Part shown: in pieces, positions 1 through 64,000 of the stretch
Layout of the letters: each line of letters begins with the position of its first letter
Numbering within the stretch: position 1 is the first letter of the stretch
Source of the DNA: Symbiodinium natans
Taxonomy: Eukaryota; Sar; Dinophyceae; Suessiales; Symbiodiniaceae
NCBI GenBank assembly: GCA_905221605.1
Contig: CAJNDS010001447.1
Coordinates: 504,216-568,215 of the forward strand
Length of the DNA: 64,000 nt
Direction of reading: 5' to 3'
Made by a program: the position numbers and the translations under genes
Notes under the pieces: model-generated
Databases searched by the model: none
The model's input: only the letters and a program-made list of their open reading frames with translations
Told to the model about the DNA's origin: nothing

Positions 1-326
1 TAGGGTTTAGGGTTTAGGGTTTAGGGTTTAGGGTTTAGGGTTTAGGGTTTCGGGTTTCGGGTTTAGGGTTTAGGGTTTAGGGCTCAGGGGTCTATACTTG
101 GAGGTTCAGGTTACATAGAACCCCAATTCCATCTGAACGTGTAAGCCCTCCGAAGCCTGTCAAGTAGCTTCGACGTAGACTTAGAATTCGGGTTATAAGT
201 ACCCATGAAAGTCGAAGTAGGGTTTAGGGTTCAGTGAGTTACTAACCCTAAACCCTAAACCCTAAACCCTAAACCCTAAACCCTAAACCCTAAGCCCTAA
301 ACCCTAAACCCTAAACCCTAAACCAG

Positions 327-405
327 ACATGTCGGCTTCCCAAATCGCTGTTTCGAGGTTGAAAGCGCGGCATGCGCAAGAGGCCATCTGGTCCACGGCG
401 CACTC
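327..405 (+). CDS. Orphan putative exon
   Basis: A GC-rich open stretch lies between a CCCTAAA array (243-325) and TTTAGGG-type sequence. It reads M-S-A-S-Q-I-A-V-S-R-L-K-A-R-H-A-Q-E-A-I and on to H-S (ATG at 329), with helical, Arg/Ala-rich composition. A consensus donor GATC|CTAAGAGTTTAGGG follows, so the exon would end at 405. No neighbouring exon could be joined in frame, and the product is unrecognised. It could be the first exon of a gene or an internal exon of one that starts left of the window. Confidence 0.3.
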
Positions 406-2561
406 GATCCTAAGAGTTTAGGGTTTAGGATTTTGGGTTTAAGGTTCGGGGTTTGGGGATTTGGGGTTTAGGGTTTAGGGTTCGGGGTTTTGGGGTTTTT
501 GGGTTTTGGGTTTGGGGTTTGGGGTTCAGGGTTTAGGGTTTGGGGTTTTGGGATTTTGGGTTTGGGGTTTTGGGATTTTGGGTTTGGGGGTTAGCAGCCA
601 GGTGCTTCAAGTAGGAGGGAGATATTGCTTGGCAGCGCCCTTGAAAGCAGAGATGCCCCTCAATGCAGCTAAGTAACCAGATTCGTTTAGGGTTCACGTT
701 TATGGCTTTCCGCGGACAAAACGCCCATAGATCTCCTTCAATGGAGCCCCATAAGGGATGGGTTCGTAGGCCCGAGTGCAGGAGCTTGAATAGTTACAGG
801 CAACATCCCCTTATGATTCAATCCCCATATGAACAGAATATACGCTACTCACTACTCCAGGTATAAACCCCATTATCTTCCCTCTCAGAGCATTTCGAGG
901 ATGATAGGGTGAAAAGCCGTGATCTTGAACTGCCTTCACGGATAAAACATGGTGCAATTCAATAAGGAAGACAACCCTCCATCAAAGACCCGACGCCCGA
1001 AATTGCTTAAGGGCTGCGGCGCCTGTGGACCAGAAGGCACATTAGCCGCCTCAAAGATTCTCACTCCTCCAAAGGAGGATCGGAGAACATCCCAAGAGTC
1101 TGTCTCGGATTGGGGGGGAACCTTAGAGGTTAGGGTAGAGTCAAAGGGTGAGGGTTGTGGATCTAAGTTCCCTACCAAAAACCCGAAACCCGAAACCCCA
1201 AACCCTATACCCTAAACCCCAAACCCTAAACCCTAAACCTTAAACCCTATACCTAAACCCCAAACCCTTACCCTGAATCCCGAAGATTGTCGGGCCAGGA
1301 GTACACACTTGCGTTTTTGGGGTGGTACCTGTCTCACCCAGCTTTCTCCTAGGGCGAAAGCTTGAAGCAGGAGGCAGATCTCGCAAAAGAAGCCCGAAAC
1401 CCTAAACCCTACATAAACCCTAAACCCCAAGCGACCTCTATAAGCTTGGAGTTTGAGGCCCAAGGGTTCCGGGTTTTGTTTCTTAGCGTTTGGGATTGAG
1501 GGTGCATCCCTCAACCCTAAACCCGAACCCCCAAGCCCCCTCACCCTAAACCCCAAACCCTAAACCCTAAACCCTAAGCCGCACTATAAACAAAAGGGAA
1601 CACAGCCGAAGAAAGCTACGCCTTGCAGGGCGCCTGGGGGTTTAGGGTTTAGGGTTGAGGGTTGAGGGTTTAGGGTTTAGGGTTTAGGGTTGGGGATTTA
1701 GGGTTTGGGGTTTTGCGTCCACACTTTTGAGCTTTTCGGGGTTTAGGGTTTCTTTGGGTTTTTGGGTTCACCTAGAATGTCTCAAGTCTCCAACTCTCTG
1801 CAAAGTGGAATCGCTTGGGCCTTCTGAATTCCCTGATTGCAGCATGGTTCAATGATAACGGACCCCCACAAAACTAGCTACATTAGATCCCCCCCCCAGG
1901 TAGGGTTTCGGCGGGTCAGGAAAGCGCGCACCGGAATGTCGGGTTCAATTCAGGTTTAGGGTTCAGGGTTTAGGTTCAGGTTAACTTTAGGGTCAGCGTG
2001 TTGTTAGCATTATGGGAGAGAGGGTTTAGGTCTATGTGGCGCCAAGCTGTCCAACATCGCCAAACTGCCAACAGAAGCTCAAGCAAAGCTGTGCATTCTA
2101 AAGCAGTGCATGCTAGGGCTCCTAGCATTTGTTTAAATAGAGTTCAGGGTTTCGGGCTTAAAGTTGGGCACCTATCTCCCTATGTCTCTGCAATCATGAC
2201 ATGTGGGGCTTGAGCCTACTGACGTCCAGGGCTTAACGGGTTTAAGGATCAGGTGTTTCTAAACTAAACTCAGACCCTAAACCCTAAACCCTAAACCCTA
2301 AACCCTAAACCGCTTTAGGGGTAAAGAGCCGCTAGCATTTCAGCACCCACGCGTCTGCAGTGGAGGCTGCAAGTCGGCATAGCTTAGCGAATGGCCCAAA
2401 AAACACAGCAAAAACCCAAAAAACAAAACCCTACAAGCCCTGAAAACCCAACAGCAACCTTAAAAACCCTATGAAGCCTAACAAACCCTAAACCCTAAAC
2501 CCTAAACCCTAACAAGGACTCATAATTACATAATTTCGGGATCAACCCCCAGATCCAGAGC
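406..2561. other. Non-coding, degenerate TTTAGGG/TTTGGGG sequence
   Basis: Degenerate G-rich telomere-like repeats fill 417-590 and 1639-1755. CCCTAAA-like repeats lie at 1190-1265, 1397-1430, 1510-1580 and 2275-2310. An island at 1590-1640 sits between CCCTAAA and TTTAGGG arrays and may be a short exon, but no frame is convincing. The other open frames here read through repeat or unique sequence without recognisable features. Confidence 0.5.
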
Positions 2562-14400: not shown

Positions 14401-16965
14401 GGTTACTGGGCAACCTAGTGGCCTCAACCATCGAAGTATGGACTCAAACGGAAACCCTAAACCCTAAACCCTAAACCTTAAACCCTAAACCCTAAACCCT
14501 AAACCCCTCTGAAGCCCGAACCTTAAGTTGCCGAAGGAGTGGCGAAAGACACTTGATGGGCCTGAGAAAGACTTCGAGGGCTGCGTGAACATCGGCCACT
14601 TAGCTGCGAGGTTTCCCTACCAGGGAGTCTGTCGACCTTATTAGGTGGGGCGTATAGGCCTAGAGTTTAGGGTTTAGGGTCCAGAGCTTAGAGGGTTTTA
14701 CACGGTTTGTGGGGTTTACAGGGCTTAGGAATGTTTTATCATGGGTTCCCCTACTACCCCCCTCTATACTACCCCCCTAAGTTCCCCCCTTAAATAACCT
14801 TAATTAGGCAAAATTCTCCCAAAATAGCCTTAAATTATGGGGGGAACCTAGGGGGGGGGGGTAGTATAGAGGGGGGTAGTAGGGGAGCCCATGATTTTAG
14901 GGCCTCTATGATGTTGTTAAGTCTGTTGGTTGACCATCAGGCCTTGTTTCTAATCGCCGAACAGCCGGCTCACAGGTTGGACCTTCTTAGTGTTTAGGGT
15001 TTAGGGTTTAGGGTTTAGGGTTTAGGGGCTGAGTTGTTTCAGTTATTTAGGGTTTAGGGTTTGGGGTTTAAGGAGTCAATGCTGGGGTGACTGGAGTCGT
15101 AAACGCTCGACCCTCGACCCTTTCTTCCCCCCACCCTGAGCCCTAAACCCCAAACCCACGTAGGGCCCTCAGAGTCACCGTTTGCTCCTTGGATCTCGGA
15201 CGCCTGTAGTCCGCGGCTCTCCAACTTGGCGCCTGAGCTGCCTCTTACAAGTCCCAGAGGGCGCATGGTTTAGGGTTTAGGGTTTGGGGTTTGGGGTTTG
15301 GGGTTTGGGGTTTTTACAGACTTTTGGTCCACACCTCTCCCAAAGCGGCGTTCTGCCTGGAGCGCTCTCCTGAACGCCCACTTGGCCTCCAAGTACTCCT
15401 GAACCCTCTAGACACTCCAAACCCAATCCCTAAACCCTAAATCCCTAACCCTGGACCCTAAACCCTAAACCTTCCTGGCCATTCCTGGTGGGTTTGGTGC
15501 TCGAAAAATGGTTTGCAGCAGATAAAGACTGCAGCTATCCTACTTGCAACCTATCACCCATGAACCGCCAAGTAGGTTGCAGCGCGGCAACGCTGGATGC
15601 AGCAGCGTCCTTCTTGAAGCACGAGAAGGCGGACGATGGGTTTGTTGTTGTTTAAGTGAATACCTGAAGCCCCAAGGTATGTGAAGCAATAGCACCTTTG
15701 TTATTGGTTTTGGGGCTTTGCTGTTGCCTACTTTGGAGGGCTTAGGTATACCCACAACGGGGCGAAGTTGCTCGCGTTTGGGCAGCTGTGCCCACGGAGT
15801 GGATTGGGTTCACGTTTACATGCACCAGTCTGCACCTTGAAGCCCATTCAACAACCAACCACCAACCACCACTCACCCAACATAGGGATCGCAATACCAC
15901 ACACTGCCGTACACAACTCCAGAGGCTACACCGTCACTACACCAAGCGCTGCGACCAGTCGAGTCTTGCATGTAGGCATTTGAAAGCTGCAGTAGACGGA
16001 CAGCGTCATGCTCCACCGCAGCGATTTTGTTCCAGAGGGGTGTGAGCAAAGATCAGATATTCCGTTGCGCCTAGAGTCGTCCTGCTGCAGTGAAAGGACT
16101 GTCAGCCATGGCAGGCAAGCATGTTGTTGTGATTGGCCACGGCCCCATCGGCCACGCCTTCATTGAGAAGCTTGCTGAGAGGGAGGCCGGATTCACAATC
16201 ACCGTGCTTTGTGAGGAGCCGCGTCCAGCATACAATCGCGTCATGCTGACACAGTACTTCCTGGACCGAGATGCCGACAAGCATGACCAGATGAAGTTGT
16301 CCTACTGGAGCGAAGAGGACTTGAAGAGTAAGAACGTGAAGCTTGTCTACGGCCGCGCAACCAGCATCGACCGTGACAGCAAGTCGGTCGCATATTCCAA
16401 AGTCAGCCACGGCGGAAGCTCTGCCGATGCAGAGGCAGATTCCGTACCTTACATCGCCTTTAGTTGAACTTTAAACTTTTTGGGCTTCCTTATTTAGTAG
16501 GAATATTAAAGGTTAACCTTTTTCCCCTTGGTTTATTGGAGAAGTAAGGTACAGTACGACGTCCTCGTGCTTTGCACCGGCAGCTTCTGCTTTGTTCCTC
16601 CAACTCCCGGCTTCGTCTTGCCGGAGAAGAAGAACCCACAGTGGCCGGATGACCCTGCCTCCCGCCCGGAAGGCGTCTTCGTGTACAGGACTTGGGGGAT
16701 GTACCCCCCCCCCCCGTACATTAACAGTCCTTAAGAGGGATTGTTATAGTAGGGAGGTACTATAATTCCGTTTATAAGGAACTGTTCGTAGAAGGGGGAG
16801 CATCCCAGAATTCAGGACCATCGAGGATCTTGAGGCTCTCATCGCGGCAGCAAAGAATTCCAAGCGCGCGGCCGTGATCGGAGGCGGCCTCTTGGGCCTC
16901 GAGGCAGCGAAAGCCGTGTTTGATCTCGAGATGGAAAGCCACGTAGCTTGGGAGCCCAGTGGTAC

Positions 16966-17003
<38 letters not shown>

Positions 17004-20000
17004 CCCTTATAAAGTTTATCAGATGCATACTGGGCTACCCTAAACCCTAAACCCTAAACCCTAAACCCTAAACCCTAAACCCTAAACCCTAAACCCTAAA
17101 CCCTAAACCCTAAACCCTAAACCCTAAACCCTAAGCCAAGGTCGTGGAGATGGCCCCCTACTTGATGCCCACGCAGCTGAACGAGGAAGCGGGCCGGGCC
17201 CTGGAGCGGAAGATCAGCAACTCGGATGCCCCAGTTTAGGGTTTAGGGTTTAGGTTTCAGGGTTTCAGGGTTTCAGGGTTTCAGGGTTTCAGGGTTTCAG
17301 GGTTTCAGGGTTTCAGGGTTTCAGGGTTTCAGGGTTTTAGGGTGTTAGGGTTTTAGGGTTTAGGGTTTAGGGCCTTATTTCCCTTTTGGGGGGGTGGTTT
17401 GGGTTACCTTCTTAGACCCCGTTCAATGCAAAACAAGGTGCATCCTTCTTTAAGCCTATAATCCTACAGGTTACCGGGAAACCGAGGCAATCTCGGCATC
17501 CATGTGCACAGCGGAGCGAAGATTCAGGAGGCTGTGCTGGAAAATGGCAAGGTCAAGGGCCTAAAGTTCATTCCGCATGGCCAAACCGAGCCTACCGTCT
17601 TGGACGTGGACATGGTTGCTGGGTCGGCCCTTAGTTGGGACATTTTTTATTTACCCTTCTATTGGGTTCAAAAAACCCTGAACCCGAAACCATGTCCACC
17701 CTCTGAAATTTGGTTTAGGGGGGTCAGGTCATACATTAGGAACATGTAACCCTAAACCCTAAACCCGCATTACCCTAAGCCCTAAGCTCTAAGCCCGAAA
17801 CCCTAAACCCTAAACCCTAAACCCTAAACCCTAAACCCTAGCCATGTCAGAAGCATTTATCAGGGGCCAACCCTAGGTTGTCGTCTCCTGCGGCGTGCGC
17901 CCCCGCGACGAGTTGGCCCGGGGGTGCGGCTTGGAAGTCGGAGGCCGAGGAGGCGTCAAGGTCGACACAAGCCTGCGCCTTCGCCTGAAATTGGGGGGTT
18001 TAGGGTTTAGGGTTTAGGGTTTAGGGTTTAGGGTTTAGGGTGTAAGGTTTAGGCGGGTTTAGGGTAAAATGAGACCCGAATTCCGAACAAGGATACATGA
18101 CCACATGGTCAGTCCTCTAATTTGTGGTCCCTTTTTGGGTACCCTATAGATATTCGGGGCCCGTCAAAAGGTCCCATGCTTTAGTGTTTAACGACCCCAT
18201 AATTGGGGTCATATCCTATACTGCTTACTATAGTCCTTAATTATTCGGGTATATGAATCGGAAACCCTTTTACAGGTTCTCAGAATTTCTCTTCGGGTAT
18301 ATGAACCACAAGTTCTTTTCGGGCTGCTTTTGGTCTCCCTAAACACAAAACCCTAAACCACAACCGGAAACCCCAAACCCTAAACCCTAAACCATAAACC
18401 CCAAAACCTAAACCCTAAACCCGAAACCCTTTTCGGGCTCCTGTGATCTCCGAGGTGCTCTTCGGATCCGAGCATCTACGCCCTGGGCGAGGTTGCGTCG
18501 ATCCTTGGGTCGCGCACCATACAGGCTATCTATAGAATCCCTAGAAGAGGGTTCAGGGTTTAGAGTTTAGGGTTTAGGGTTTATAGGGTTTATAGGGTAT
18601 CTAGGGTTTATAGGGTTTATAGGGTTTATGGGGTTTATAGGGTTTATAGGGTTTATAGGGTTTATAGGGTTTATAGGGCTAGGGCTAGGGTTCCAGGGTC
18701 TATGAGCCCTAAGCCCCTTTTTTGAGGGGCTCTTATGTTGGTCCCCGCAAGGATTGGGGGCGTCTTCTGCTACGGCCTCTGGGCGCCCATGGGTACCCTT
18801 TTCTCTGGAACCCTAAACCCTAAACCCTAAACCCTAAACCCTAAACCCTAAACCCTAAACCCTAAACCCTAAACCCTAAACCCTAAACCCTAAACCCTAA
18901 ACCCTAAACCCTAAACCCTAAACCCTAAACCCAACAGAGGGTGCCCTTATTAGAATATGGTTCCTGGGCTACCAAGGCCTTTGGGCGCCCGGAGTTGACC
19001 AGGCAGAGGCGCTGGTGAAGAACCTCGTCGAGGGCGCGGGCAGCGCTAGCCACTTGGTAGGGTTTAGGGTTTAGGGTTTAGGGTTTAGGGTTTAGGGTTT
19101 AGGGTTTAGGGTTTAGGGTTTAGGGTTTAGGGTTTAGGGTTTTGAGGGTTTAGAGTTTAGAGTTTAGGGTTCAACGAGCCCTTAAGACCACTTGAATTGA
19201 GGAATAGGCCATAATCTATGTAGGGATCCTTTCTATGATTGAAGGCATATTCCTTACTTAAGGGGTATTGGGCTCTTTGGGTAGTGCTCTGTTGGAATTT
19301 GTGCTGGTCCAACACCAAAGGGTACCCTTGTTGCAAGACATAAATAACCCTAACCCCCCAAACCCCACATCCTAAACCCTAATCCCTAAACCCTAAACCC
19401 TAAACCCTAAACCCTAAACCCTAGACCCTAAACCCTAAACCCTAAACCCCCAACCCAAGGCTACGAGAAGAGCGACTTGAGCACAAAGCTGAAGCTCCTG
19501 GGAGTCGACGTGGCTTCCTTCGGTGCCTTGGTAGCCCAGTGTGGGGTGCCCTTCTGTGCCCCCTTCTTGGGGGTTTAGGGTTTAGGGTTTAGGGTTCAGG
19601 GTTTAGCGTTTAGGGTTTAGGGTTTTCCTTAACAGGGATTCTAGTGCCCCTGATTAGAACCCCCATGAAGCAAGGCCTTTTCCATTAGCCGTAGCCACCC
19701 CCCCCCCCCCCCACCGCCCTCAAAGAGAAGAAAACAACAAAAAAACACAACACAACGTATAGACAGTCAGGGTAATACATGGTTGCTGGGCTTCCTAGGC
19801 TCTGACGAGAGCTTCTGGTTCAAGCGCAAGTTCGATGGCAAGGACCCCGAAGTCCTGAACGTGGAGTGCAGCAGCGCCGTGGATGGCTCCTACCGCCGGC
19901 TGTGTTTCAGCAAGGACGGCCAGAAGCTGGTGGGCGGCGTCCTCGTTGGCGATGCCAAGGATTACCCAAAGCTGCTGCAGCTTTGTCATTGTTGGGTAGC

Positions 20001-22151
20001 ATTTTGCATTTTTTAAGGGTACTGAAACCCAATAAGGAATCAACATTCAAACTTTGAATATTATCCCAACAATGAACTAGGCAGCTCTGCAAAAAGGGCG
20101 ACCTCGGTGGCTCCGACCCCGAGAGCCTGGCCTTCCGCCGGCCTCCGCCCGGCCAAGGAGCAGTGGCCAATGACGGCGGAGATGGCACGGGCATTGCGGA
20201 GGACGACGTCATCTGCACGTGCCTGAACGTTACCAAGGGCGAGGTGGTGAAAGCCATCAAGGAGAAGGACTGCACGACTGTGCCGCAGATCAAGAAGTGC
20301 ACAAAAGCCGGCACAGGCTGCGGCGGCTGCTGCACTCCAGTGGGCGAGGTTCCAAAGGTTCTATCAGCGACGCTGAAGGCATTGGGCAAGGAGGTCAAGG
20401 CTGGCATCAGTGATTGCTTTCCATACACCCGCCAAGAGCTTTTCAACATCTTCCGCGTCAAGGAGATTAAGACCTTTGAGGAAGCCGTTGAGAAGGTTGC
20501 CGTGGGTGGCAACGGCAGCGAGGTGGACAAGCCGGTCATCGCCTCAATCCTGGCCAACATTTGGAATGACAACGTGCTGACAGGCAACCGTGATCAAATT
20601 CAGGATACCAACGACCGCTTCTTGGCCAACATCCAGAAAACAGGCACCTACTCTGTTATCCCTCGATGCGCCGGTGGCGACATCACGCCCGATGAGCTGA
20701 TTGCCATTGGCACCACCGCCAAGAAGTACGGCCTTTGGACCAAGGTCACAGGTGCCCAGCGCCTCGGCATGTACGGGGCCCCGGTGCATGAGCTGCCCTC
20801 CATCTTCAGGGACCTCGTGGACGCTGGCTTGGAGTCTGGCCACGCCTACGGCAAGGCCCTGCGCACAGTCAAGAGCTGCGTGGGAAGCACATGGTGCCGA
20901 TATGGACAGCAGGACTCCGTGAGCATGGCCTGCACTCTGGAGAACCGCTTCTCGGGCTTGCCCCTGATTCCCCCTTTTTGGTGTTTATTCAAGGTATAAA
21001 GTAACCAACCCAAGAAGAAAAGGGTACCCTTAAAGCTTCTGATGATATGGTCGCTGGGCTACCAAGGCTACAAGGGCCTGCGTGCACCTCACAAGATCAA
21101 GATGGCCGTGTCTGGCTGCCTTCGCGAATGCGCCGAGGCACAGGGCAAGGACGTAGGCTGCATCGCCACCAACAGCGGCTACTAGGTAGGACCTTGGGAT
21201 GTTTAATGTTATAGTAGGATCCCCTTGTAGTAAGGACCCCAATCAGGGCACCCCCAATATCACTAGCCTACAGCGGCTACTAGGCAGGACCTTGGGATGT
21301 TTCATGTTTATGGTTGCGCTTAATTGTTGGGCTTTTTCTTGAAGATACAGACTGGGGGTTTACGAAAATAGGTAGGGGACCGCAAATATAGACCCCCAAA
21401 GAGTAGGATCCCCTTGTAATGAGGACCCCAATAAGGTACCCCGAATATCGTAAAGCCCCAGATGGTTAAGAGCATTTTCCAAACCCTAAACCCTAAACCC
21501 TAAACCCTAAACCCTAAACCCTAAACCCTAAACCCTAAACCCTAAACCCTAAACCCTAAACCCTAAACCCTAAACCCTAAACCTAACCCTAAACCCTAAA
21601 CCCTAAACCCTAAACCCTAAACCCTAAACCCTAAACCCTAAACCCTAAACCCTAAACCCTAAACCCTAAACCCTAAACCCGAACCCACCATGTTCAGTCG
21701 GGTTTTGCAAGGGCCAACCGAGGCTACAACCTCTACCTTTGCGGTAATGGGGGAGCCAAGCCTCGACATGCGCAGCTCCTTGCATCCTCCATCGATGAGG
21801 AGACGTGCCTGAAGTACATCGATCCTAGGCAGGACCTTGGGAGATTTTTTCTGTTGTTAAACCTCAGTTCTCTTCATTCTAGCTAAGTTCTCTGACTTCT
21901 TGGGTTTGAGAGGAGGAAGTTCTCTTCATTCTTGCTAAGGTTCTCTTACTTCTTGGGGATTTTAGGAGGAAGATCTCCAAGAATTTCGTTTCAGAGGGGT
22001 TGGAACATCGATCGACCGAGGATCGGTTTCTCATGTTTTACTGCAGCACGGCCAAGCACCTTCAACGCACAGCACCATGGCTCGAAGAGCTCCCTGGTGG
22101 AATTGATTCTTGGTAGCCCAGTGGTACATTTTTTTTTTGTTTTTTTTTTTT

Positions 22152-22182
<31 letters not shown>

Positions 22183-25100
22183 GGCGGGTTAGGGTTTAGG
22201 GTTTAGGGTTTAGGGTTTAGGGTTTAGGGTTGAGGGTTGAGGGTTGAGGGTTTAGGGTTTGGGGGGGGGTTCAAGGTTCCCATGTAAAGTAGCCACACCA
22301 AAAAAGGGTGGCCTTGATACAAGATGGTTGCTGGGCTACCGAGGATTACTTGAGGAAGGTCATCGTGGACGACTGCCTTGGCATTTGCACAGACCTCGAA
22401 GGGCTCATGCAGCGCAACGTGGCTGCATACAAATGCGAGTGGAAGGAGGTGGTCTACGACGAGGAGCTGCAGAAGAAGTTCACTCAGTTCGCCAACACCG
22501 CGGAGACCCTGGACACCGAGCAGGTGGAGTACGTGAACATGCGGAAGCAGCGACACCCAGCCACCTACGACCTCCCGGACATCAAGGGAGAGGCGCTTTT
22601 CTCCAAGGAGAAGGCTTCCGACAGCTGGGAGTGGTACCCTGCAGGCAAGGCGAAGGACTTCCCTGCCTGCAGTGGTCTCGCAATGAAGCATGGTGATGCG
22701 GAGGTCGCCGTCTTCAACCTGTCTCACCGCAAAGCTGAATCAGAGAGGTGGTTCGCAACCCAGAACCTGTGTCCCTCCAAGCAGGTGCGGGTGCTCTCCC
22801 GCGGTCTAGTAGGCGAGCCCGCGAGCGGCGCTATCACCATTGCTGATCCGGTGTACAAGACAGTCTATGACCTGAGACTTGGTAGCCCCGTGGTGCCCTT
22901 TTCCCATTTTTTTGGTTCAAGGTTCCCTATTCATAAAAAGTAACAACTCCAAACAAAAAGGGTGCCCTTATTAGAATGTGTTTATTAAAAAGTAACAATC
23001 CCCGCAAAAAAAAGGTGCCCTTATTAGAATGTGTTTACTGGGCTACCAAGGAGAACTGGGCAGGGCATCACCAGCCCGGATCTCAACCTCTCCACGTTCC
23101 CGACGCGCGTGACGGCAGACGGCACGGTGGAGGTGAAGCTGCCTTTGCCGGAGGAGTACCTTGGGGCTGTCATATACCCTATACTGCGACAATCCCTTTT
23201 GGGCTATGTGGCGGTTTACCCTAGTATAGATCCCAAATAGTAGGAGATCCCCTTAGAATACCGACCTCAAGAAGGTACCCCGAATATCGTAAGCCCCCAC
23301 AAGAACCATAAACCCTCGAAAGTTCATTTGGCCCTTAAACCCTAAACCCTAAACCCTATAACCCTATAACCCTATAACCCTATAACCCTATTACCCTATT
23401 ACCCTACTAACCCTACAACCCTAAACCCAAGGTATGCCAAGGCACTCCAGGCGGCGGCCCGCAAGGCGGTCGAGGAGTCCGGCGTGAAGGCTGCTAAGGT
23501 CATGGGCAACTCGGTAGGCCCTTGGGACATTTCGTAACCCTAAGCTCTAAACCCGAAACCCTAAACCCTATTTTCCCTATTTTGGGTTTAAGAGGATCAT
23601 GTTTAGGAATGTTTTTTTTTTTCCCCCCCCCCGCCCCCCCTTGCTGGGTTTCAGAGGATCATAATTTAGGAATATGTTTCAGAGGGTTTCAAGAGCCATC
23701 CTAGGCAAGTCAAAGCCCTTCGACGCCAACGGCAAGCACATCGCCTTGGACTGGTAGGGCCCTAAACCCTAAACCCCAAAAACTCTAGAATGCAACGCGC
23801 GAGCTGCAGGCAACACTATTTACCGACTGTCCTTGATACCCCATGGGCTTGATTTTCCAAGTCCTGCAGGCTCGCTTTCAGAAACGGCTCAGATGAAGTC
23901 TGATCGACAGTTGTCAACAGTTGTTCTCACCCCGCATCACGCCCAGAGTCAATCTATACGATTTGTGTGGTGATGTTGTAGATGTTTCTCGTACCATCAG
24001 AGGATGAGTAATGTTTAGGAGCGCAATAACAAGCTTCAGAAATGTTAGACTGGCTTGGCAACCCCGAGAGATCGTTCCATGATCCGCTTTTGTTGCAGCA
24101 TCCAGTGCGGAGCATAGATGGATGCTTAAAGCACCGCTTGTCTGGCACGTTGTCCGATGAGGGGAGGGCTCGAGTGGAACTCAGCCCTTCACCTTTTCTA
24201 CGAGCAGCTTGTCAGCTCACGTGTTATTCCACAGCAAGAGGCGCGCCAAAGTGCAAAGTGTGCAATGCTGCACAGGTTGGCGGCTGTTCTTCCGTAGTCC
24301 CTATACACCTTGAACCCTACTCCCCGAATATCCGAGCCGGAAATGAAAGAAAGATGGCTACTGTAGTCGGTGGTTGTGGACGCCGCCACAAATGCTAAGA
24401 CCAGGTTTGCAAAATGCAAGTTGGAAGCCGAAAGCTTCGCGTTGAAGCTGGATTGGAGACGCTGAAGTGGTTCGCCCCTGAATCCTCAAAACCATGAATG
24501 CCGAATCGCTGAACCCTAAGCCTAAACTCTGAAGAAAACAGGTCTATGGTGCATTCGGCATTCACCCGCTCCGTGCCGAGCAGTGGAGCGAGGAAGTGGA
24601 GGAGCAGCCGGGTAGATGCCAAGATGCTTAAATGTATGGAACTATCACCCGTAAGCCCGAACTTCTATGGATAGTTGTCGAGCACAACGGAAGGATTCGC
24701 GAGGAGTGCTCGCAGCTACTTCGCATGCTTAAGATTACGTCGCTGTGTCAAGGGAGAATGGTGCAGAGTATGGCTGAACATAACGCGGCGGTGGCAGTGA
24801 GTCAGGCTTGGGGCAGCGAAACAGGTTTTGTGAGCAGTATCAGGTTTCGTTCTTGACGTCTTACATTCTGAGTCCCCTAAGACATCTTCTGCTGGTGCAT
24901 ATATTTTTCTGCCGTCGTTCGACATATGTGTTAGACAGTGTTGTTTTAAGTTTCAGGGCACCCGAACGCAGCTACGCCTTTTTTGCTAAGCTTTCCAGAA
25001 ATTCAAATCCGAAGTCAGCCCCAAACAAACTCCAAAGCTCAGAACTTTCAACCCTACACCCTAATCCGCCGACGGATGAGGGTTTAGGGTTTAGGGTTTG

Positions 25101-25621: not shown

Positions 25622-28600
25622 TGCCCCGACCCTGCCCCTTCCACCCATCCCTCACCCCTCATTCCCCCCTAGCTCCGCGAGCGAAACCCTCACAAACCCT
25701 GAGGCCCAGCCCTATGGGGGTTAGGATTCAGAGGGTGTGGAGTTCAGGGAGGGTCGGTTGAGGGGTTGAGGGGTTGAGGCTTGGGTTTCTGTGTAACCCC
25801 AAACCCTATCAGCCCGTTGGCCCTCAGGACAAGCAGACACGCGGACAGATACAGGACGCTGAGTTGTTTGTTTGCTCGTATAACCCTGAACCCTAAACCC
25901 TAAACCCTAAACCCTAAACCCTAAACCCTAAACCCTAAACCCTAAACCCTAAACCCTAAACCCTAAACCCTAACCCGTAAGAGAGGGGGCTCCGAAAGGG
26001 GAAGAGGCAGCATCTGAAACCCTAGGAAGGGCGACGGAATATCAGGCACACATTTTGCTACATACCCCCGTTGGTTCGACACAACCCTGTACCCTAAACA
26101 TCCCTAAACCCTAAACCCTAAACCCTAAACCCTAATTCCCAGGCCCTAAACCCCCTCCCTGAAGAGTTGTCGGTGTGAAGGGCTTATGGTTCAGAGACGT
26201 CTGGGCTCAGAGCATGAAGCTGCATGCAGCCTTGCGAAGCTCCAGCTGGTTTAGGGTTTAGGGTTTAGGGTTTAGGGTTTAGGGTTCAGGGTTCCCTAAG
26301 TAAGCCCTCAACCCAATCTTCGAAACATGCAAGACGTGTTCGCGGCAAGAACCTTGCTAGAGGATGTTCAACTAAGACCCCCAGCTTCCGTTATAGCGTT
26401 TAGGGTTTAGGGTTTCGGGTTTAGGGTACCCTACTTTTCCCTGGCTTGCCCCCAGCCAAAGCTGGTTTGCAATCTCCTCCAAGCCATGTTCCTCTGGACG
26501 CAGCCCCAAACCCTAAACCCTCAATCCTAACCCCTATAAGCACTAAGCCCTATAAGCCCTCTAAGTCCTATAAGCCCTGTAAGCCATAAACCCTTAAACC
26601 CTAAACCCTAAACCCTAAACCCTAAACCCTAAACCCTAAACCCTAAACCCTAAACCCTAAACCCTAAACCCTAAACCCTAAACCTTAACCCCGAAAAGCC
26701 CTAAACCCAAGCCCAAGCCCTCCAACCCCCCCCCGGAGAGCCTTAAACCCTACACCCTAAACCCTAAACCCTAAACCCTAAACCCTAAACCCTAAACCCT
26801 AAACCCAGGCCCTAGACTCCAACCCCCCGGAGAGGACATGGCAGCTCGGGAGCTGCAGCGCAAGGTCTTCGCGCGGCAGATCGACCTGGCGGCGCCCTGG
26901 TGTCCGAAGGGTTGAGGGAACCCTAAAACCCTAAACCCCTAAACCCCTAAACCCTAAACCCTAAACCCTAAACCCTAAACCCTAAACCCTAAACCCTAAA
27001 CCCTAAACCCTAACTTACAGGTCCAGGGGTAGGGCTTCGGGTTCGGAGGCTTCGGGGCCTCTTAGGGTAGGGACTTTCGGCATGCGATGGTCTATATGAG
27101 GACTGCTGCAGATCACTTGTGAGACAGCCTCAGCTCTTAATTGTCTAGGGTTTAGGGTTTAGGGTTTAGGGTTTAGGGTCTAGGGTTTAGGGTTTAGGGT
27201 TTAGGGTTTAGGGGAGCGAGCGTTAGAAATAGCAAACGAAGAAATATACAGTAGACGGGATAGAGAAAGGCCCGAGGTAAGCCATTATAGAGTTCAGGGT
27301 GCAGGACTTAGGGTGGTAGAGTTGATTGGGCTCTTTGACTTTTTAGAGTGTCGGGTTTAGTTTTTTTTTTGTTTTGGCTTTTAAAGGGTTTTTGTGTTTT
27401 AGGGTTATAGGGTTTAGAGACCTTCACGTTCATTTTGTTTAGGGTTTGTAAAATTCTAAACCCTAAGCCCTGAACCCTACACCCTAAACCCTAAACCCTA
27501 AACCCTAAACCCTAAACCCTTCACGTTCATTTTGTTTAGGGTTTGTTAAAGGGTTCTGGGTTTGGCGGTTTTAGGCTTCAACCCAGGGATGAGCACTGGG
27601 GGGGCCTCACAGGAGCGCGGGGGCGGGTGCCTTGTGGCGCTGGAATAAAAGGATCCTGATGGGTTTAGGGTTTAGGATTTAGGGTTTAAGGTTTAGGGTT
27701 TAGGGTTTAGGGTTTAGGGTTTAGGGTTTAGCGAACCCCTAAACAGGGAACCCCAAGAATACAGTAGAATAGAAAGGGAGCATAAGGACCCTGGTAGGTA
27801 TATTCCTGTCATGCTCCTGCTATCGTTCTCGGGGTCCCCTGTTGAAAAAATTAGGGATTCCATTCAAGTCCCTTCATGGAACTTGGTAGCACAGTGGTAC
27901 CCTTTACCTTTTTTTGGTTCTGGGTTCCCCATAAAATAACCAACCCCAAAAAGGGTGCCCTTATTATAATCTGGTTACTGGGCTACCAAGGGAAGATTCA
28001 TGCCAATGTGGGGGTTGTTCTAGTCAAGGCATTCGTTGTACCCGGCCATTGAATTTCGGTTCTCCATCATGTAAGAGGATTTGCATTGCAGACCTTTCGA
28101 CAGATCCCCCATGCAAGGGGTCATTTTCTGTTTCTGTTCGAATTGGCATTTGGGGATGTACGAAAATAGGGGAACCCCTATATAGATCCCCAAGCCCCAA
28201 TAAGGTACTGTACCCCTAATTTCGGAAACCCAATTTCGGTTCATACAAGACCCTAGACCCTAAACCCTAAACTCTCAACCCTAAACCCTAAACCTTGAGT
28301 CACTGCTGAGGTATCCCTGAACAAGCCGCTGGTGGTCCACACGCGCTTTGCAGAGGAGGCGCCTTGCGCTGTGACCGTGGGGAAGCTTTACGCGATCATC
28401 CTGACACCCTTCCCTGAAAGAGAAGGAGGGTTTAGGGTTTAGGGTTTCGGGGTTTAGGGTTTAGGGCTTTCGAAAATTTCGAAAATAGGGGACCCCTAAA
28501 ATAGGCCTCTAATAGTAGGATTCCCTTACAACATGGACGCCAAGAAGGTACCCTTAATCTCAGAAGCCCCCAATCAAGTCGTAGCCTATGATCTTCAGCG

Positions 28601-31600: not shown

Positions 31601-34600
31601 CGAACTCTTCAGGCGCTTCGGATCGGGTTCACCGGGGCCAGGTCCCCAAACACTGGGGGTTTAGGGTTTAGGGTTTGGGGTTCGGGTTTTGGGTTTCGGG
31701 TGTAGGGTTTAGGGTTTAGGGTTTAGGGATTCTCTAGACTCGGGTCCCTTTTTGAGGTTGCTATGCTAAGGCGGCCCCGTTTTCTTCAGGGTAGCCCAAA
31801 AAGGGATCCTAATTTTGAGAACTGACCATATCAGCGCCCAGAGGCTGCTTTCTTACTTTGGGCCAGGGTTTGGAAATTTCCTTGTCATAGTGGGATAACA
31901 TTTTACATTTTTGAGGGTACTTAAACTCAATAAGAATAAAATTTTAAATTTTTATTACTATCCCAACTATGAACCAGATTTGGGGTTTGTAGTTTAGGAG
32001 GGTTTGGGGTTTTAGGACTTTGGGGTTTAGGGTCCAGCATGCCCTGATGCGAAAGCGTCTGACATCCATAGTTCTCTAAATCATAGTCAGTTTTTTTTTT
32101 TTTTGTTTGTGTGTGTGTGTGTTTTTTTTTGGGGGGGGGGGGAGGGTATCAACCCGGCTTCCCAAATCCCGGCACCCTAAATCCCTACCTCAACTCGTCC
32201 CCAAAAACCCCTGAAGCCCTAAACCTTGCATAAACTACCCCCAAAGAAGTTCCCCTTAAAGGCCCTGTATCCTAAATCCTATACCCTACTCCAGGCATTG
32301 AATCCTAAACCCTAAACCCTATACCCTAAACCCTAAACCCTAAACCCTAAACCCTAAACCCTAAACCCTAAACCCTAAACCCTAAACTGCAATAATCCCC
32401 CAATCCCTTCGCCCAGGTTATCACCTTCAAGAACGCCCCTGAAGTGCAGGAGCACGAGCCAAGGGGCTCGCACACATTCAGGGTTTAGGGTGTTACGGTT
32501 TAGGGTTTTACCCTAAACGCCAAGCCCTAAACCCTAGACCCCTCCCTTGATTCCTGCTTACCAAATATGAAGAAGAAACTAGACCCGGGCAGCATTCTGC
32601 ACACATCTTTACTTGGTCGGCGCCCTCTGAGATTGCACACCTATATGCTAGGATGCTCTCTGCAGGGACTACACACAAAAGGAAATAGAGCATTTAATTT
32701 TCACCCTTTTTGATTCTCGGGGTTTTTAGACAGACTGCCCTAAACCCTATAAGCCCTAGTACAGACTCACAGATTCAAGGCACAGACTCTCTCAACCCTT
32801 CAACCAGAGACGTTGCCTTTTGTGGATGGGGTACGAAACGTCAGTGCTAAACCCTGGACCCTGACCAAGGAGACCCTCAACCTAAATCCCGAACCCTACG
32901 CGCAGGAGGTCGTGCGCAATGTGCCGCTGGACCGGATCCTGTTGGAGACGGACGGTCCATACATGGCGCCAGGTTCCCACATGGATATCTGAGCAGCGGA
33001 GGCTTGAGGGCTTGGGGTCCTGACCCCTACACCCGGATGCCCGAAGTTCCACCCCTTTACCCTTTACCCTAAACCCTAAACCCTAAACCCTAAACCCTAA
33101 ACCCTAAAGCCACAAACCCTAAAACCCTGGCCCTCCCAGGCACCTCCTTGAACGCCCTGAATCTTGGGATTAGCAAGTTCAGTCGGTTGCCGCAATCCTT
33201 AACATACCTCACCGCCGTGAAAATCGCACCCGAATCTCAACAAAGCTTGATGTGCAGGCCTGGATGAGATGCTTCATTTCAACGCTGTTGACGAATGCCT
33301 GTTGTTGAGGTCGTTCTTGCGGATAAATCGGTTTTTGCAACTTGCTATATACTTAGCGTCATGTTCTTTGTGTCTGGGCCTCATGCCCAATTGCCAGCCA
33401 AGGCACGGCTTAGGGTTAGCTTAAAGAGTTTCCAAGTTGAAGGGTCGAAGGGTTTCAAGGGCTTTTGGGGTTCCAGGGGTTGTGGTGCTTTAGGGAATAC
33501 GAGCCACGCCTTCAAGTCAAGACCCCCCAACCCCAAAGAACTTTTTACCCGAGCGCCAGCCAAGGCACGCTTGCGCACAGTTTTTAGGGTCAACCCTTGA
33601 CCCTGTACCCTAAACCCTAAACCCTAAACCCTTAACCTTCCTGAGCCTTGAAAGGGCTTAAGGGTTCAAGCATTTGGGTGTGCCTCGCACGGTGGGTTTT
33701 AGGGTTTAGGGTTTGGCTCGAGAGTTGAGAGCTTAGAGTTTTAGGGTTTTCGGTTTAGGCGCTTGGCCTGCTCCGCTACATGTGGACTGCCCAAGGCCAG
33801 AGCCATTTCGGGGGCGCATCGCCCATCCAGGCGATGGCCAAGAATTTGGGGTTTAGGGCCTAGGGCTTGGGGTTTAGGGGGTCTTTGATGTAACCGCCGT
33901 TCCGGTTAGGGCTTTGGGTTCAGGGCTTTGAACGTCTTTGGGCTAGAGCTTTCCGAAGGTCTTCTTTCACACCGGGCGGCAACAGGCTTCTTCTGTTTGA
34001 CTCGCTTCTTGCTCAGGAGACTATAAGTAACTACCCCACGACTGGATTGTCGGGCATGTCGGACGAGCTTGGGGTTTCATGATACCTGTCAAACGTACCT
34101 GCACTCAGTAGTAAATACCCTATACTTCCTAAACCCTAAACCCTAAACCAGTATCCTTTGCCCCATTTCAACCCCAAACCCATAAAACATCGGTACCTGA
34201 AGAGAGGACGTCGTCCTCAGACTCAAGGACAGTACAAATCTGCGGACTTAGGGTTTAGGGTTTAGGGTTTAGGGTTTAGGGTTTAGGGTTTAGGGTTTGG
34301 GGCCGGTGCCGGTGCCTACCTCGTGAGGAAGATTCTCTCAGAATTCTATTTAAGGAGCCGATGGCTTGAGTTCATCTTGCTTATTGAGGGGTGGTTAAAG
34401 GCCAGGGTTTAGGGTTTAGGGTTTAGGGTTTAGGGTTCAGGGTTTAGGGTTTTCTGAACCTTAAGCTTCAAACCCCAAACTTGGGGTGGGGGCTTGCGGT
34501 TGAGAGCTTGAATGTTAGGCATGGAACAACTATAAACCCCGAACCCATCAAACAACCGTAAACCCTAAACATCCCTAAGCCCTAGGCCCTATACCGCCTA

Positions 34601-36985: not shown

Positions 36986-39900
36986 ATGAGCCGAGCTTGT
37001 TCAGAGGCGGGTTTAGGGTTTAGGGTTTCGGGTTTAGGGTTTAGGGATGTTTAGGGTTTAGGGTTTAGGGTTTAGGGCCGGCGACAGCTTGGCGTTGTCG
37101 GGTCTGGGGTTCAGTCTTCGTTGTTTAGGGTCCTAGAGTCATCTGCCCCCGCATGATATGGTATTATGTAGTTATAACGTTTCCCCCCCCCCCCCCCCCC
37201 CCCGCGCGTCCGAACTGACACTGGGCTTGGAAGCCTAAGCCCTAAACCCTAAACTACGTAACCCTAAACAGTATACAAGCCCTAAACCCTAAACCCTAAA
37301 CCTCAAGCTCAGCCCTGACCTGTCCGTCCTTACACCTAATCCACCTGCACACAAACCTGCTCCCTAGATTAACCTCGAGACCCCTTTAAGAACAAGGACA
37401 TGCCCTTGGTTCTTAACCCTAAACCCCAAACCCTAAACCCTAAACCCTAAACCCTAAACCCTAAACCCTAAACCCTAAACCCTAAACCCTAAACCCTAAA
37501 CCCTAAACCCTAAACCCACACCTTACACCTTAAGCCGGGCGCCTCTGCTGTCCTGCGATTTTCCGCGCTCGGCTGCGAAGTCGAGTGCGCATCCCATGTG
37601 GAGAAAAGTGGGGAGTCCTAAACCCTAAACCCTAAACCCTAAACCCTAAACCCTAACCCCAAAAAGGGTACCCCTGTTTTCGGAAGCACCCATATGATAG
37701 CACGTCCAAGTGTGCTATATTAAGAAAGGTTTGTAGCGGAGTCGGAGCAGTGAAGAGAGTTAGGGCATCAGGTACCTTCTACTCCCCGGCGCAACCCTTC
37801 AAGAGATTATGTAGGGTTCGCAGAATACTTAGGATTATCGTCTTTCGGGGTACGGAACCCTTCAAAGAAGGAAAACAAATTCCTAAACCCTAAACCCTAA
37901 CCCTAAACCCTAAACCCTAAACCCTAAACCCCCAAACAGACTCCCCTTAGACGCGTGGGGGCAGGGCCACGCGGTCACCTGCTTCGAGCGCCTCGCAGCC
38001 TTCGGCGCCGATCTCTCCGCCAGTCTGAAGCTTGGGGCTTCTAGGGTTTAGGGTTTAGGGTTTAGGGTTTAGGGTTTATAGGGTGTTTAGGGTTTGGGGT
38101 TTAGGGTTTGGGGTTTAGGGTTTGGGTTTAGGGTTTGGGTTTAGGGTTTAGGGTTTCGGGTTTAGAGTTTCGGGTGTAGGGTTTAGGGTTTAGGTTTGGG
38201 TTTTGGGGTTTCGGGTTTCGGGTTTCGGGTTTAGGATTTATATAAGGTTTACGGTTTCGGGTTTAGGGTTTCGGGTTTAGGGTATAGGGTTCAGGGATTG
38301 ATTAGCGTTTCGGGTTCAGGGTTTACGGTTCAGGGTTGAGGGTTTCGGGTTCAGGGTTTCAGGTTCAGGGTTTCGGGTTTAGGGTTTCTGGTTTCGGGAT
38401 TAGGGTTTAGGGTTTTGGGTTTTGGGTTTTAGGCTTCAGGGTTTCGGGATTAGGGGTTTAGGGCTTAGGGTTTAGGGTTTCGGGTTTCGGTTTAGGGTTT
38501 GGTCCAGGGTTTCGGGTTTAGGTTTCAGGGTTTAGGGTTTCGGGGTTAGGGGTATAGGGCATAGTGCTTCTCGGGTTTAGGGTTTAGGGCTTTTCGGGGT
38601 CAGGGTGTACGACACCTGGCCTTTGCTGTTGGCAGTCCTCCCCCCAAAAAGAGACTGAGGTCACCTCCTAGGCTGTATGAACAGGGATTTTCCGAGCACC
38701 GGTCACACCGCCTCACACACGGCACGTTGCTTTTCGAGAGTGCAACCTTGGTCGTGGCCTTCCTACAGGCTCAGGCGACCCGGGTCTATTTCGGACATTA
38801 GGTCCAACTCCCTCCCCCCATCCTATTTCAGCACCCTCAACCTACAATCCCTATTTCCTAGACCCCAAACCCTAAACCCCCCTAAACGCTAACACTCGAT
38901 TGTTACTTTTGGGGGGGAGGAAGGGGTTGGAGGAGAAGCCCTGAACCCTGAACCCTAAACCCTAAACCCTAGACCCTAAACCCCAAACCCTAAACCCTAA
39001 ACCCTAAACCTAAAACCCTAAACCCTAAACCCTAAACCCTAAACCCTAAACCCTAAACCCTAAACCCTAAACCCTAAACCCTAAACCCTAAACCTAAACC
39101 CTAAACCCTAAACCCTAAACCCAAACACTGGAGACTCCACCGCGCTGGCGAAGGTCCGGCGCCGGAGCTTCGGGAGCTGATGCAGTTGATGCAGCAGCAG
39201 ATGGGTGATCTGGACAGGGTTTGGGGTTTAGGGTTTAGGGTTTAGGGTTTAGGGTTTAGGGTTTAGGGTTTAGGGTTTAGGGTTTAGGGTTTAGGGTTTA
39301 GGGGGTGTAGGGCTCAGGGTTTCGGACGGGATGGTCGACCGTGTGTGTTTTGAGGTCCTGCATGGTCACTCACCGAAACCAGCACAGATGTTTTTAGTTA
39401 TAGCTTCTGCATGGGCATATCTCTTCCAAGAACTTAAACCCTAAACCCTAAACCGTGAAACATTCGAGGAACACTTACAACCCTAACCTCATGAATCCAA
39501 AAATGCCACAGATGGAATTGGAAAACCGTTCTACAATTCCCAGGCCCATCTTTGACCCTCTGCAACCCCTAAACCCTAAACTCTTTACAGTGCCCTTATG
39601 TACAGGGTTACGGCTCTGGTAGTTAGGGATTTTCCAGTAGCGTTTAGGGACCTAAATGCACCCCAAAGTAGCAACTGACTCCCGTCTTAATAGCCCAAAA
39701 GACCAAAAGAGACCCCATAGAACTGGTCTAAACCTTAAACCCTAAATCCTATAACCCTAAGCCCTAAATCCTTGAGTCCTCCCGAAACACTGCGCCGGCT
39801 CCAGGATGCATCGACAGTTGCCCGGCTGGGCACCGTGGCGGCTGCGCTGAAGGCTCCAGCCCTGCGGCCCGGCAACGACAAGAAAAGACCAGAAGCCCAA

Positions 39901-49820: not shown

Positions 49821-49825
49821 CCAAA

Positions 49826-50025: not shown

Positions 50026-50047
50026 GACCCTAGACATCTGCCGAGAG

Positions 50048-50778: not shown

Positions 50779-50845
50779 GCGGCTTTGGGGGGGGGGTAAG
50801 GCAGTTTAGGGGTTTAGGGTTTAGGGGTTTAGGGTTTAGGGTTTA

Positions 50846-52247: not shown

Positions 52248-52450
52248 TGGGATGTTCACCCTTATACGAACAGTCCATAATAGCCCTACTACAATCCCTA
52301 GGACCCGGAGTAGGCCCTTATTTCCTTCTTTTGGGGTTGGGGTTCCCTTATAATCCCCTTAAAACCACAAAAGGTACCCTTTTTAGTCCTAGGTTACTCC
52401 TGGGTCTAGATCCCTCTTCAGAACTGTCTGTCTAAGGGGGAACATCTCAA
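52248..52450. mobile_element. Family E hairpin carrying a nested family G element
   Basis: The outer ends TTGGGATGTTCACCCTTATAC and AAGGGGGAACATCTCAA are family E, interrupted between its arms by the family G element at 52298-52409. Confidence 0.8.
52298..52409. mobile_element. Family G element nested in family E
   Basis: CTAGGACCCGGAGTAGGCCC ... AGGTTACTCCTGGGTCTAG flanked by an exact ATCC/ATCC duplication. Confidence 0.88.
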
Positions 52451-52789
52451 TACTCAGTCTTTGCAGCTACTGGCCGGTTGCTTGGCCAGTAGCGTCTCGA
52501 GCCCTGAACCCTGAGCTTAAGAATGTTTACAGGGGTCCAGTACATGTGAGTGTTTCCAAGACAAGTAGTCCTCGTCAGGGGGGTTGAGAGTTTGAAATGG
52601 CTTCCACTTACGAGGAGCCAATTTTTGTGCTACGTTTGAAACAAACAACCTCCAGCTACCAGAATAGCAGCCTTGGGGGGCTTCCGATGATAATAATATA
52701 ATTGGCGGCCCTTTGCAAGGGGCCTTAAAAAAAGGATTCGAGTAGTCGGGTGCTAGATCAGGGGTACCCCTGCTTTGGGAAACGTGCTC

Positions 52790-53200
52790 GTTTAATTTGC
52801 CCGCGAGTGAATGCAGTAAGAAAAAGAGTGAACAGAGTGAGCGCAGTAAAAGCCCTTTTAATATTCTTTCATTGGGCTTTTACATAGAGAACGTATTGAA
52901 CGAACTAAGAAGAGAACAAATATTACGAAGAGAATGAACTGAATTAATTTATGAACGAAGCGAATTAATGAGCAAAGTGCATTAAATTCAAAACCGAAAG
53001 AACGAAGGAAACAAATATTATCGCCGCTCACTAGTTTTCTATTATGCCGCGGGAATATTATTAGTGTGTGTCCAAAACCCCCTTAATAATAGTGTAAACG
53101 TGGGGTTTTGGGGGTTCGTTCGCTTCTCTCTCTCACGTATTATACGATTACGGGGCAGTGAAAAGATCTTTATAAGCCCCACCAATTAGTATTCTCTTTC
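52790..53200. other. AT-rich island of foreign composition
   Basis: Clearly more AT-rich than its surroundings, without telomere repeats. Recurrent words such as GAACGAA, GAGCGAA-like and AATTAAT occur. No open frame. It could derive from an organelle or plasmid-like sequence, or be an old element. Confidence 0.4.
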
Positions 53201-53699
53201 CGTATGTGGAACTTTTGCTCTGGGGGTCTGGCAAGCCTCAAGCTTTTCCCGCCAGGCGGATTGCCTGGCAACCCCCCAGCCTGTCTTTCACAACAGCCCA
53301 CACTGAAGTCGTGTAGGCACTGTTTTAAACATGTACTTCAGTGTTGGGGCTGCGTTCGGTGTTTTAGGGGTTGGGTTCGGGGTTTTGTTTGGGGTGTTAG
53401 GGGGGGGAGTGGGTGCTATACAACCCTCAACCCTAATTCAACCCTAAACCCTAAACCCCAAACCCTAAGAGATCTAAGAGCCCTAACCCTAAGCCCTCGC
53501 CCTCTGCTCAAATCCATGGGCCCACAGTCCCTGGATCACCGCCCCCCCCCCCCCAGGCTGCGGCCCACATTGCAGGCAGCTTGGCAAGCCAACCATCCCA
53601 TTTGGTGAGGGGAGTTAGGGGTTTAGGGTTTAGGGTTTCGGGTCCTAAACCCTAAACCCTAAACCCTAAACCCTAAACCCTAAACAAAAGCCTTTGCCA

Positions 53700-53860
53700 T
53701 CCGATTAGGGGGATTCCGGGTTTCGGACATTTGGGGATTCAGGGGGAATTAGCGGATTCAGGGTTTAGGGAATTTGGGGGATTTAGGGAATTTAGGGGAT
53801 TTAGGGAATTTAGGGGATTTAGGGAATGTAGGGTTCAGGGTATTTAGGGCATTTAGGGGT
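53700..53860 (+). repeat. GGGAATTTAGGGGATTTA tandem repeats
   Basis: Degenerate 18-mer units, an expanded relative of the TTTAGGG pattern. Confidence 0.7.
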
Positions 53861-54137
53861 CTTGGGGCTTAGGCAAGTTTACAAACTCTTTGTAGGTTTT
53901 GGGGTGAACGAGGTACCTGATAGCCCGTATGTAACCCTTTTAAGGATTATGTCGGGTACTTAATCTTCTGAGCCATGGCAGCCCAAGCCCAAACACCAAA
54001 CCCTAGAAACCAAAAACCCGAAGCTCAAGCCCTCAAAAGCCCCAAATCAAAACCAAAACCCAAAAACCCAGTAGACACTGAAACCTAAAACCCCTAAACC
54101 CAAACCTAACACCCCTAAAACCCAAAACCCAAAACAG

Positions 54138-63660: not shown

Positions 63661-63843
63661 ATCCTAACCTTCACAGCATCTGCGCCATATAGCCGCAAAC
63701 CCTAAACCCTAAGCCCCAAACCCAAAACCCTCTAACCCTAAACCTTAAGCCCTAAGCTCCAAACCCTAAACCCGAGCCCCAGGCCTTACGCCCTAAACCT
63801 TCAGCCTAAGCCCTAAACCCATCCTGGTAGTTAGCTGTTTCAG

Positions 63844-63918
63844 ATGGTGGAAGCACTGGCAGCGGTTCACGAACCTCGGCTGCAAGACGCGCTCAGCTGC
63901 ACCAAAGGCCTACTTGAA
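63844..63918 (+). CDS. Exon island at the right edge
   Basis: GTTTCAG|ATGG start; reads MVEALAAVHEPRLQDALSCT then KGLLE, with a GTGA donor and TTTAGGG-like sequence after. Degenerate CCCTAAA (63700-63820) precedes. Frame relation to the 62982 island is unknown. Confidence 0.35.
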
Positions 63919-64000
63919 GTGAGCGTTTCGTGTTTAGGGGCGGGGTTTAGGGTGTAGGGTCGGGCTCTAGTGTAGTTTGCTTCAGGGCTTTCCGTTGTTT

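Follow-up and report, generated by a model that had tools for sequence, protein, structure and literature searches.

Introners are among the leading explanations for episodes of rapid intron gain. Introner family 1 of Symbiodinium microadriaticum has 4-bp target site duplications, terminal inverted repeats and its own 3′ splice site, and takes its 5′ splice site from the duplication; GC and GA donors were also counted among introners there (Gozashti et al., 2022, PMC9860276). In Amoebophrya, introner elements have inverted intron ends and short direct repeats spanning the boundaries, and a hairpin was proposed to join the exon ends (Farhat et al., 2021, PMC7789003). GC and GA donors have been reported in dinoflagellates, whose telomere unit is TTTAGGG (PMC11453091). 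Telomere-type repeats at internal sites are described from mammals, as short interstitial telomeric sequences (PMC7215372), and from plants, as telo boxes (PMC3022908). Here we analyse a 64,000-nt stretch of dinoflagellate nuclear DNA from Symbiodinium natans (contig CAJNDS010001447.1, hereafter the window; the assembly has 759.4 Mb in 2543 contigs), in which arrays of TTTAGGG (T arrays) and CCCTAAA (C arrays) flank exons of a nitrite reductase gene, nirBD, and stand in the arms of introners.

In recognisable introner copies, telomere-type arrays stand in the arms, T arrays mostly in the 5′ arm and C arrays mostly in the 3′ arm. Exact patterns, counted with one match per arm on one assembly strand (forward counts for left arms and reverse counts for right arms), identified T arrays in 110 distinct left (5′) arms genome-wide and C arrays in 29 (p = 3e-12), while C arrays occupied 70 distinct right (3′) arms and T arrays 38 (p = 0.003); the read-backwards control was zero for all four counts. 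By eye, many of the left-arm T cases (the first 100 of 378 rows) have the form ..CCCTTTTTTTGG(TTTAGGG)n or a similar one, and many of the left-arm C cases (all 77 rows listed) have the form ..TTTACCC(TAAACCC)n or alternatively ..GGTTCCC(TAAACCC)n. Arrays thus tend to start at points where the arm sequence is in phase with the unit.

The nirBD introns illustrate this anatomy (Table 1). Inverted ends are seen in many of the 18 introns, and introner anatomy was recognised by eye in introns 1, 3, 10, 12, 13, 15 and 16, in the copy at 27878–27994 and in loci L036 and L048. The terminal inverted repeats CTTGGTAGCCCAG...CTGGGCTACCAAG have 11 matches in the window (up to two mismatches) against 1.4 expected, and the family is present in many copies, with hundreds of arm matches genome-wide in addition to those in L036 and L048. 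Target duplications of 4 bp, as read by eye, are GATT in intron 15, GAGA in intron 16, GTAC in intron 1, GGAA at 27878 and GTAT in L048, those of other introns being shorter or ambiguous. The AG at the 3′ end is carried by the element, and by eye the splice sites lie at or near the element ends with the frame restored. The donors, also read by eye, are GC in introns 9 and 12 and GA in introns 15 and 16, not GT.

Array-free copies (introns 12 and 16, 27878–27994 and L048) approximate CTTGGTAGCCCAGTGGTACCC...TTTTTTTGGTTC...AACCAACCCCAAAAAGGGTGCCCTTATTAGAAT.TGGTTACTGGGCTACCAAG|G, with roughly mirrored inner arms (5′ arm TTTTTTTGG(G), 3′ arm CCAACCCCAAAAA). Intron 15 differs from them by an array at the T7|GG point: its T array lies between the left-arm poly-T and GGTTCAAGG and extends into the 3′ half (alignment A1). 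A second case of a T array in a left arm was found in L036, at TTTTTTTGGG. Intron 8 has a C array of about 17 units immediately 5′ of the right arm AACAGAGGGTGCCCTTATTAGAA...CTGGGCTACCAAG (adjoining AACAGAGGGTGCCC), which also occupies the 5′ half, so that this half was scored against the polarity. Among the 12 array-bearing nirBD introns, introner arms are recognisable in introns 3, 8, 10 and 15, and possibly in intron 9.

A search for a kinase family gave 133 matches over the genome, many of the best being long open frames unsuited to the testing of intron flanks; in the flanks of eight matches there were a single C array, adjoining an acceptor (L045), and a single array-free introner (L048). 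In L045 (G000:C1970:362603-363547), a long CCCTAAA array stands shortly 5′ of an apparent CCCCCAG acceptor. Kinase-family matches also form a tandem series in G000:C1019:16657-35637, several of them about 1.6 kb apart.

These introns resemble those of S. microadriaticum in their 4-bp duplications, inverted ends, carried 3′ site and borrowed 5′ site, a match in kind and not necessarily in family; they differ in the oriented telomere-type arrays in their arms, "telomer" occurring nowhere in the main text of PMC9860276. They share inverted intron ends and short direct repeats across the boundaries with the elements of Amoebophrya, whose telomere motifs are described in PMC7789003 at three scaffold ends and not in introns. 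Since the arrays consist of tandem telomere units at internal sites, they are interstitial telomeric sequences and, like those of mammals, start in register and are in part intronic. The intronic share in human is 31%, compatible with random insertion (PMC7215372), whereas in the present genome pairs of arrays enclose short islands and the repeat is very abundant, a 21-mer having 1.18 million overlapping matches per strand in 759 Mb. Plant telo boxes are likewise short telomere motifs within genes; they are described in PMC3022908 as short, richest in 5′ untranslated regions and more frequent in the first and second introns, and not as long arrays flanking exons. Among the matches listed in the open full-text literature, outside which most subscription papers lie, there was no report of telomere arrays in dinoflagellate introns, and their novelty is a lead rather than proof.

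The arrays were defined as at least three exact units with gaps of up to 40 nt, which gives 126 in the window (58 T and 68 C). Their orientation was compared with 60 exon calls, comprising the 19 nirBD exons and 41 coding-like islands (below), excluding arrays that overlap a call and counting 125 of the 126. Within 60 nt of a call, 41 of 52 arrays have the C–exon–T orientation proposed in the initial annotation (p = 4e-5), and 33 of 43 do so when nirBD is masked. The bias is seen as 25 C to 4 T on the acceptor side (p = 1e-4) and as 16 T to 7 C on the donor side (p = 0.09), the difference between the sides not being significant (p = 0.18). Agreement falls to 5 of 9 arrays at 60–150 nt and to 29 of 64 beyond 150 nt, where the bias is gone. 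With islands placed at random, agreement within 150 nt was 0.385 ± 0.105 (maximum 0.65 in 300 runs), compared with 37 of 50 observed. The polarity is thus a real bias close to exon ends, not the fixed rule that had been described. Since the order C–exon–T reads identically on both strands, the strand of the gene should not matter.

Within nirBD alone, 13 intron halves of the 18 introns agree with the polarity and 5 disagree (p = 0.096). Introns 6 and 9 do have, as had been noted, a T array at the donor end and a C array at the acceptor end. Exons 4, 6, 7, 9 and 10, 5 of the 17 internal exons, are each preceded by a C array and followed by a T array (Fisher p = 0.035).

The spacing of the arrays follows the same order. 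In the window, gaps from a C array to the next T array have a median of 121.5 nt (32 of 40 below 200 nt), against 447 nt for gaps from T to C (11 of 41 below 200 nt; Mann–Whitney U test, p = 6e-7). In 18 other 10-kb stretches, chosen by contig number (one of them, L039, with 7500 of its 10000 letters N), together with locus L018, the medians were 136 nt (32 of 39 below 200 nt) and 361 nt (12 of 35), with a peak of C-to-T gaps at 100–200 nt (28 of 39). T-to-C gaps below 50 nt are rare (window, 1 of 41; other regions, 1 of 35). T and C arrays alternate in the window more than expected by chance (82 runs versus 63.6, z = 3.3), z ranging from 0.4 to 3.3 across the five array definitions tried. Over the genome, (TTTAGGG)3 has 1,185,204 forward and 1,184,385 reverse overlapping matches (read-backwards control, 41 and 33). 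CCCTAAA followed by TTTAGGG after 85–115 nt has 107,320 matches and the opposite order 41,057, a ratio of 2.6 (read-backwards control, 0 for both); these are overlapping matches and not numbers of exons. Random orientation, the result that would speak against the initial annotation, was thus not seen, spacing being counted here and not annotated exons.

Some further observations concern the distribution of the arrays. The genome is a mosaic: 7 of the 18 10-kb stretches (L026–L043) have no telomere array (G+C of 0.49 to 0.585) and 6 have at least 12. Variant units, 8 or 9 bases long (GTTTCAGG, TAGGGTTTA and AACCCTAT), make arrays of their own at 17234–17372, 18575–18678 and 23338–23428; these are G-rich in nirBD introns 4 and 7, where they occupy the 5′ part, and C-rich in intron 17, where they occupy the 3′ part. 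In a viral collection, 17 contigs (L001–L017) carry (CCCTAAA)3CCC, and a search of these for introner ends found none.

Islands between a C and a T array were scored with a codon score trained on nirBD alone, which is partly compositional (the score is similar on both strands). Outside nirBD, 17 of the 27 C-to-T islands of 60 to 260 nt in the window reached the score threshold, compared with 6.6% on average, and 22% at most, of matched pieces from T-to-C gaps (500 draws). In the 18 other regions and L018, 12 of 32 islands (38%) were coding-like, compared with 22% on average and 47% at most for the matched pieces, and 7 of 32 passed a shuffle test. Flanking of exons by arrays is therefore established for one gene, nirBD, and likely for much of the window; we do not claim that islands genome-wide are mostly exons, the coding test being weak outside the window. 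The example singled out in the initial annotation, an exon at 39154–39206 between two arrays, agrees with the sequence in its C and T arrays, which stand 89 nt apart; the island between them is coding-like and a candidate exon, for which no homologue was found. Kinase-like exons read by eye on the minus strand of L034 were discarded, since Pfam gave no match and the top entries of a PDB search were lectins (E = 0.09), a kinase following at E = 0.33.

That the introner arms are the source of the array polarity is, in our opinion, quite possible, though somewhat short of probable, and selection at splice sites was probably added to what the arms provide. Arrays would arise where a few bases of an arm already match the repeat in register, beginning by slippage or from telomerase or telomeric DNA at a break, and would afterwards expand and decay. 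The arms being inverted copies, T arrays would come to lie near donors and C arrays near acceptors on either gene strand. Selection may then sharpen the polarity, because TTTAG|GG would make a good false acceptor and C-rich repeats would be harmless at that position. The bias is stronger on the acceptor side than in the right arms, so that loss of T arrays from positions before acceptors probably contributes there as well. The restriction of the bias to exon ends speaks for an origin in the arms. A T array in the 5′ half together with a C array in the 3′ half is found in 2 of the 12 array-bearing nirBD introns (of 18 in all), the number predicted for independent occurrence (Fisher p = 1.0), and such independence is expected if each arm acts alone. 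The arrays themselves are probably without a dedicated function.

Several points weigh against this explanation. The exact arm patterns recognise only a few hundred arrays, whereas overlapping C..T matches number more than 100,000; beyond this small share the origin of the arrays is extrapolated from the traced cases. Another exact right-arm pattern matched intron 8 alone. The bias of the right arms is weaker than that on the acceptor side of exons (Fisher p = 0.04), so the arms alone do not explain the latter. Left arms contain C arrays too, at CCCT seeds (29 arms, one strand), and the inner seeds are imperfect inverted copies. Moreover, the arm copies may lie in genes, in which case splicing selection could act on them.

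Splicing selection by itself, with T arrays before acceptors purged as false 3′ splice sites (TTTAG|GG) and with G-rich repeats beside donors, like C-rich ones beside acceptors, tolerated or helpful, is a rather unlikely explanation, yet one to be taken seriously. The confinement of the bias to about 60 nt from exon ends, its greater strength on the acceptor than on the donor side (a difference short of significance) and its excess over the right introner arms are all in its favour. The donor side leans likewise, however, where C arrays should be harmless, and among the six array-free nirBD introns only intron 11 has a G-rich left half and a C-rich right half. Furthermore, the excess of T arrays in left arms can be explained by arm sequence without splicing, though these copies may be genic. 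We consider it improbable that telomerase produced the polarity by healing both ends of intron breaks, each 3′ end being capped with TTTAGGG and the two rejoined as exon–TTTAGGG...CCCTAAA–exon. The repeat is the exact dinoflagellate telomere unit (PMC11453091), a capped fragment would have the C–exon–T orientation, and many arrays begin at in-register GG or CCCT, as do mammalian interstitial telomeres at breaks (PMC7215372). Such rejoining should nevertheless produce a head-to-head arrangement of T and C arrays, one that is rare given the T-to-C gaps above, both in their medians and below 50 nt; most array-bearing nirBD introns have a single orientation, and the variant-unit arrays point to ordinary tandem expansion. 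Head-to-head telomere fusion was therefore rejected as the main route.

Two further explanations ascribe a function to pairing between the arrays. The initial annotation proposed that the arrays of an intron form a UUUAGGG/CCCUAAA stem joining its two splice sites, and would be retained for this; it also proposed that intronic transcripts would contain TERRA-like UUUAGGG. Parts of the idea hold: arrays lie just inside introns with inverted ends, and introns 9 and 6, folded alone, have predicted folds far better than those of shuffled sequences (z = -16.2, with a long stem beginning CUUGG:CCAAG, and z = -8.7). As a general mechanism it is not supported, both arrays being present together at chance level. 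In a single 945-nt stretch from exon 8 to exon 10, moreover, the predicted fold contains two pairings across exons: one spans exon 9 and joins the intron 8 C array to the intron 9 T array, and the other spans exon 10 and joins the intron 9 C array to the intron 10 T array. Since C-to-T gaps are shorter than T-to-C gaps, the nearest complementary array is usually across an exon. Chance co-occurrence and cross-exon pairing thus do not favour the stem, which we hold to be very improbable. The same fold would place exons 9 and 10 in loops, and C-exon-T arrays might accordingly define exons through hairpins or promote back-splicing that yields circular RNA. The peak of C-to-T spacing at 100–200 nt elsewhere and the co-occurrence of upstream C and downstream T arrays at internal nirBD exons are consistent with such looping. 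The arrangement also arises passively from the polarity, however, the array-rich part of nirBD could alone produce the co-occurrence, and long hairpins enclosing exons are expected to harm splicing; a role of this kind is accordingly very doubtful, though less so than the intron stem. It is equally doubtful that tens of thousands of exons are framed by complementary arrays about 120 nt apart, each exon in a (CCCUAAA)n:(UUUAGGG)n hairpin loop.

The gene in which these introns lie was identified by its spliced product, whose best matches are dinoflagellate proteins: protein P0001 covers the entire query with 81% identity, and NasB of Symbiodinium sp. CCMP2456 has 80% identity over 59%. Pfam domains Rieske_2, Fer2_BFD, NIR_SIR and Pyr_redox_2 were found in nirBD. 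Compared with P0001, the exons were joined by eye in frame, with CCAAG|G-type acceptors. A TatD gene is situated downstream of nirBD. Upstream of nirBD there is a coding-like stretch (12858–12962) with FIDTHCHLD, a motif that we take to be a TatD-like start, and perhaps a second TatD-like gene, whereas the remaining TatD sequence is downstream. An Rfam scan gave no matches at the gathering thresholds, and Pfam gave none in a single frame of 39001–54000. A run of 71 C is present at 25551–25621.

Table 1. Coordinates of the genes, introns and other features discussed, in positions of the window.
Feature	Coordinates	Strand	Description
nirBD	16096..23754	+	Nitrite reductase, NirB and NirD fusion; 19 exons, 18 introns; tblastn with P0001
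nirBD intron 3	16943..17140	+	C array only, within the right inverted repeat (CTGGGCTACC-array-CCAAG); splice points by eye
nirBD intron 6	17976..18455	+	T array 17996–18053 at donor end, C array 18337–18430 at acceptor end; ends approximate, from homology blocks
nirBD intron 8	18789..18990	+	Introner-like; ends approximate
nirBD intron 9	19049..19459	+	T array 19058–19171 by donor, C array 19346–19449 by acceptor; ends CTTGGTAGGG...CCCAAG; splice points by eye
nirBD intron 10	19523..19798	+	CTTGGTAGCCCAG...TTCTTGGGGG(TTTAGGG)n; T array only, after TTCTTGG; splice points by eye
nirBD intron 15	22105..22343	+	Introner copy, 4-bp duplication GATT; splice points by eye
nirBD intron 16	22874..23050	+	Array-free introner, duplication GAGA; right arm partly doubled (53-base tandem); by eye
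TatD piece, weak	25165–25236		E = 0.06
TatD-like pieces	26829–26894, 28299–28378, 34648–34740		By eye only
Array-free introner copy	27878..27994	+	4-bp duplication GGAA; left arm CCTTTTTTTGGTT, right arm AACCAACCCCAAAAAGGG
TatD exon	32900..32971	+	PF01026, E = 3e-7
Example of the initial annotation	38939..39303	+	C array 38939–39126, coding-like island about 39135–39215, T array 39216–39303

Introner arms in which telomere repeats have spread, and whose polarity can be measured, link intron gain, the spread of telomere sequence and splice-site constraint. How interstitial telomere repeats start, from in-register seeds, can now be tested, as can whether complementary arrays flanking exons alter splicing or yield circular RNA. 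In such algae, intronic repeats may swamp telomere probes, reads and assays of telomeric repeat-containing RNA (TERRA). If exons did lie in array hairpins, a device for exon definition or a driver of back-splicing would be possible, and telomere sequence spread by introners would have been recruited into splicing at genome scale.

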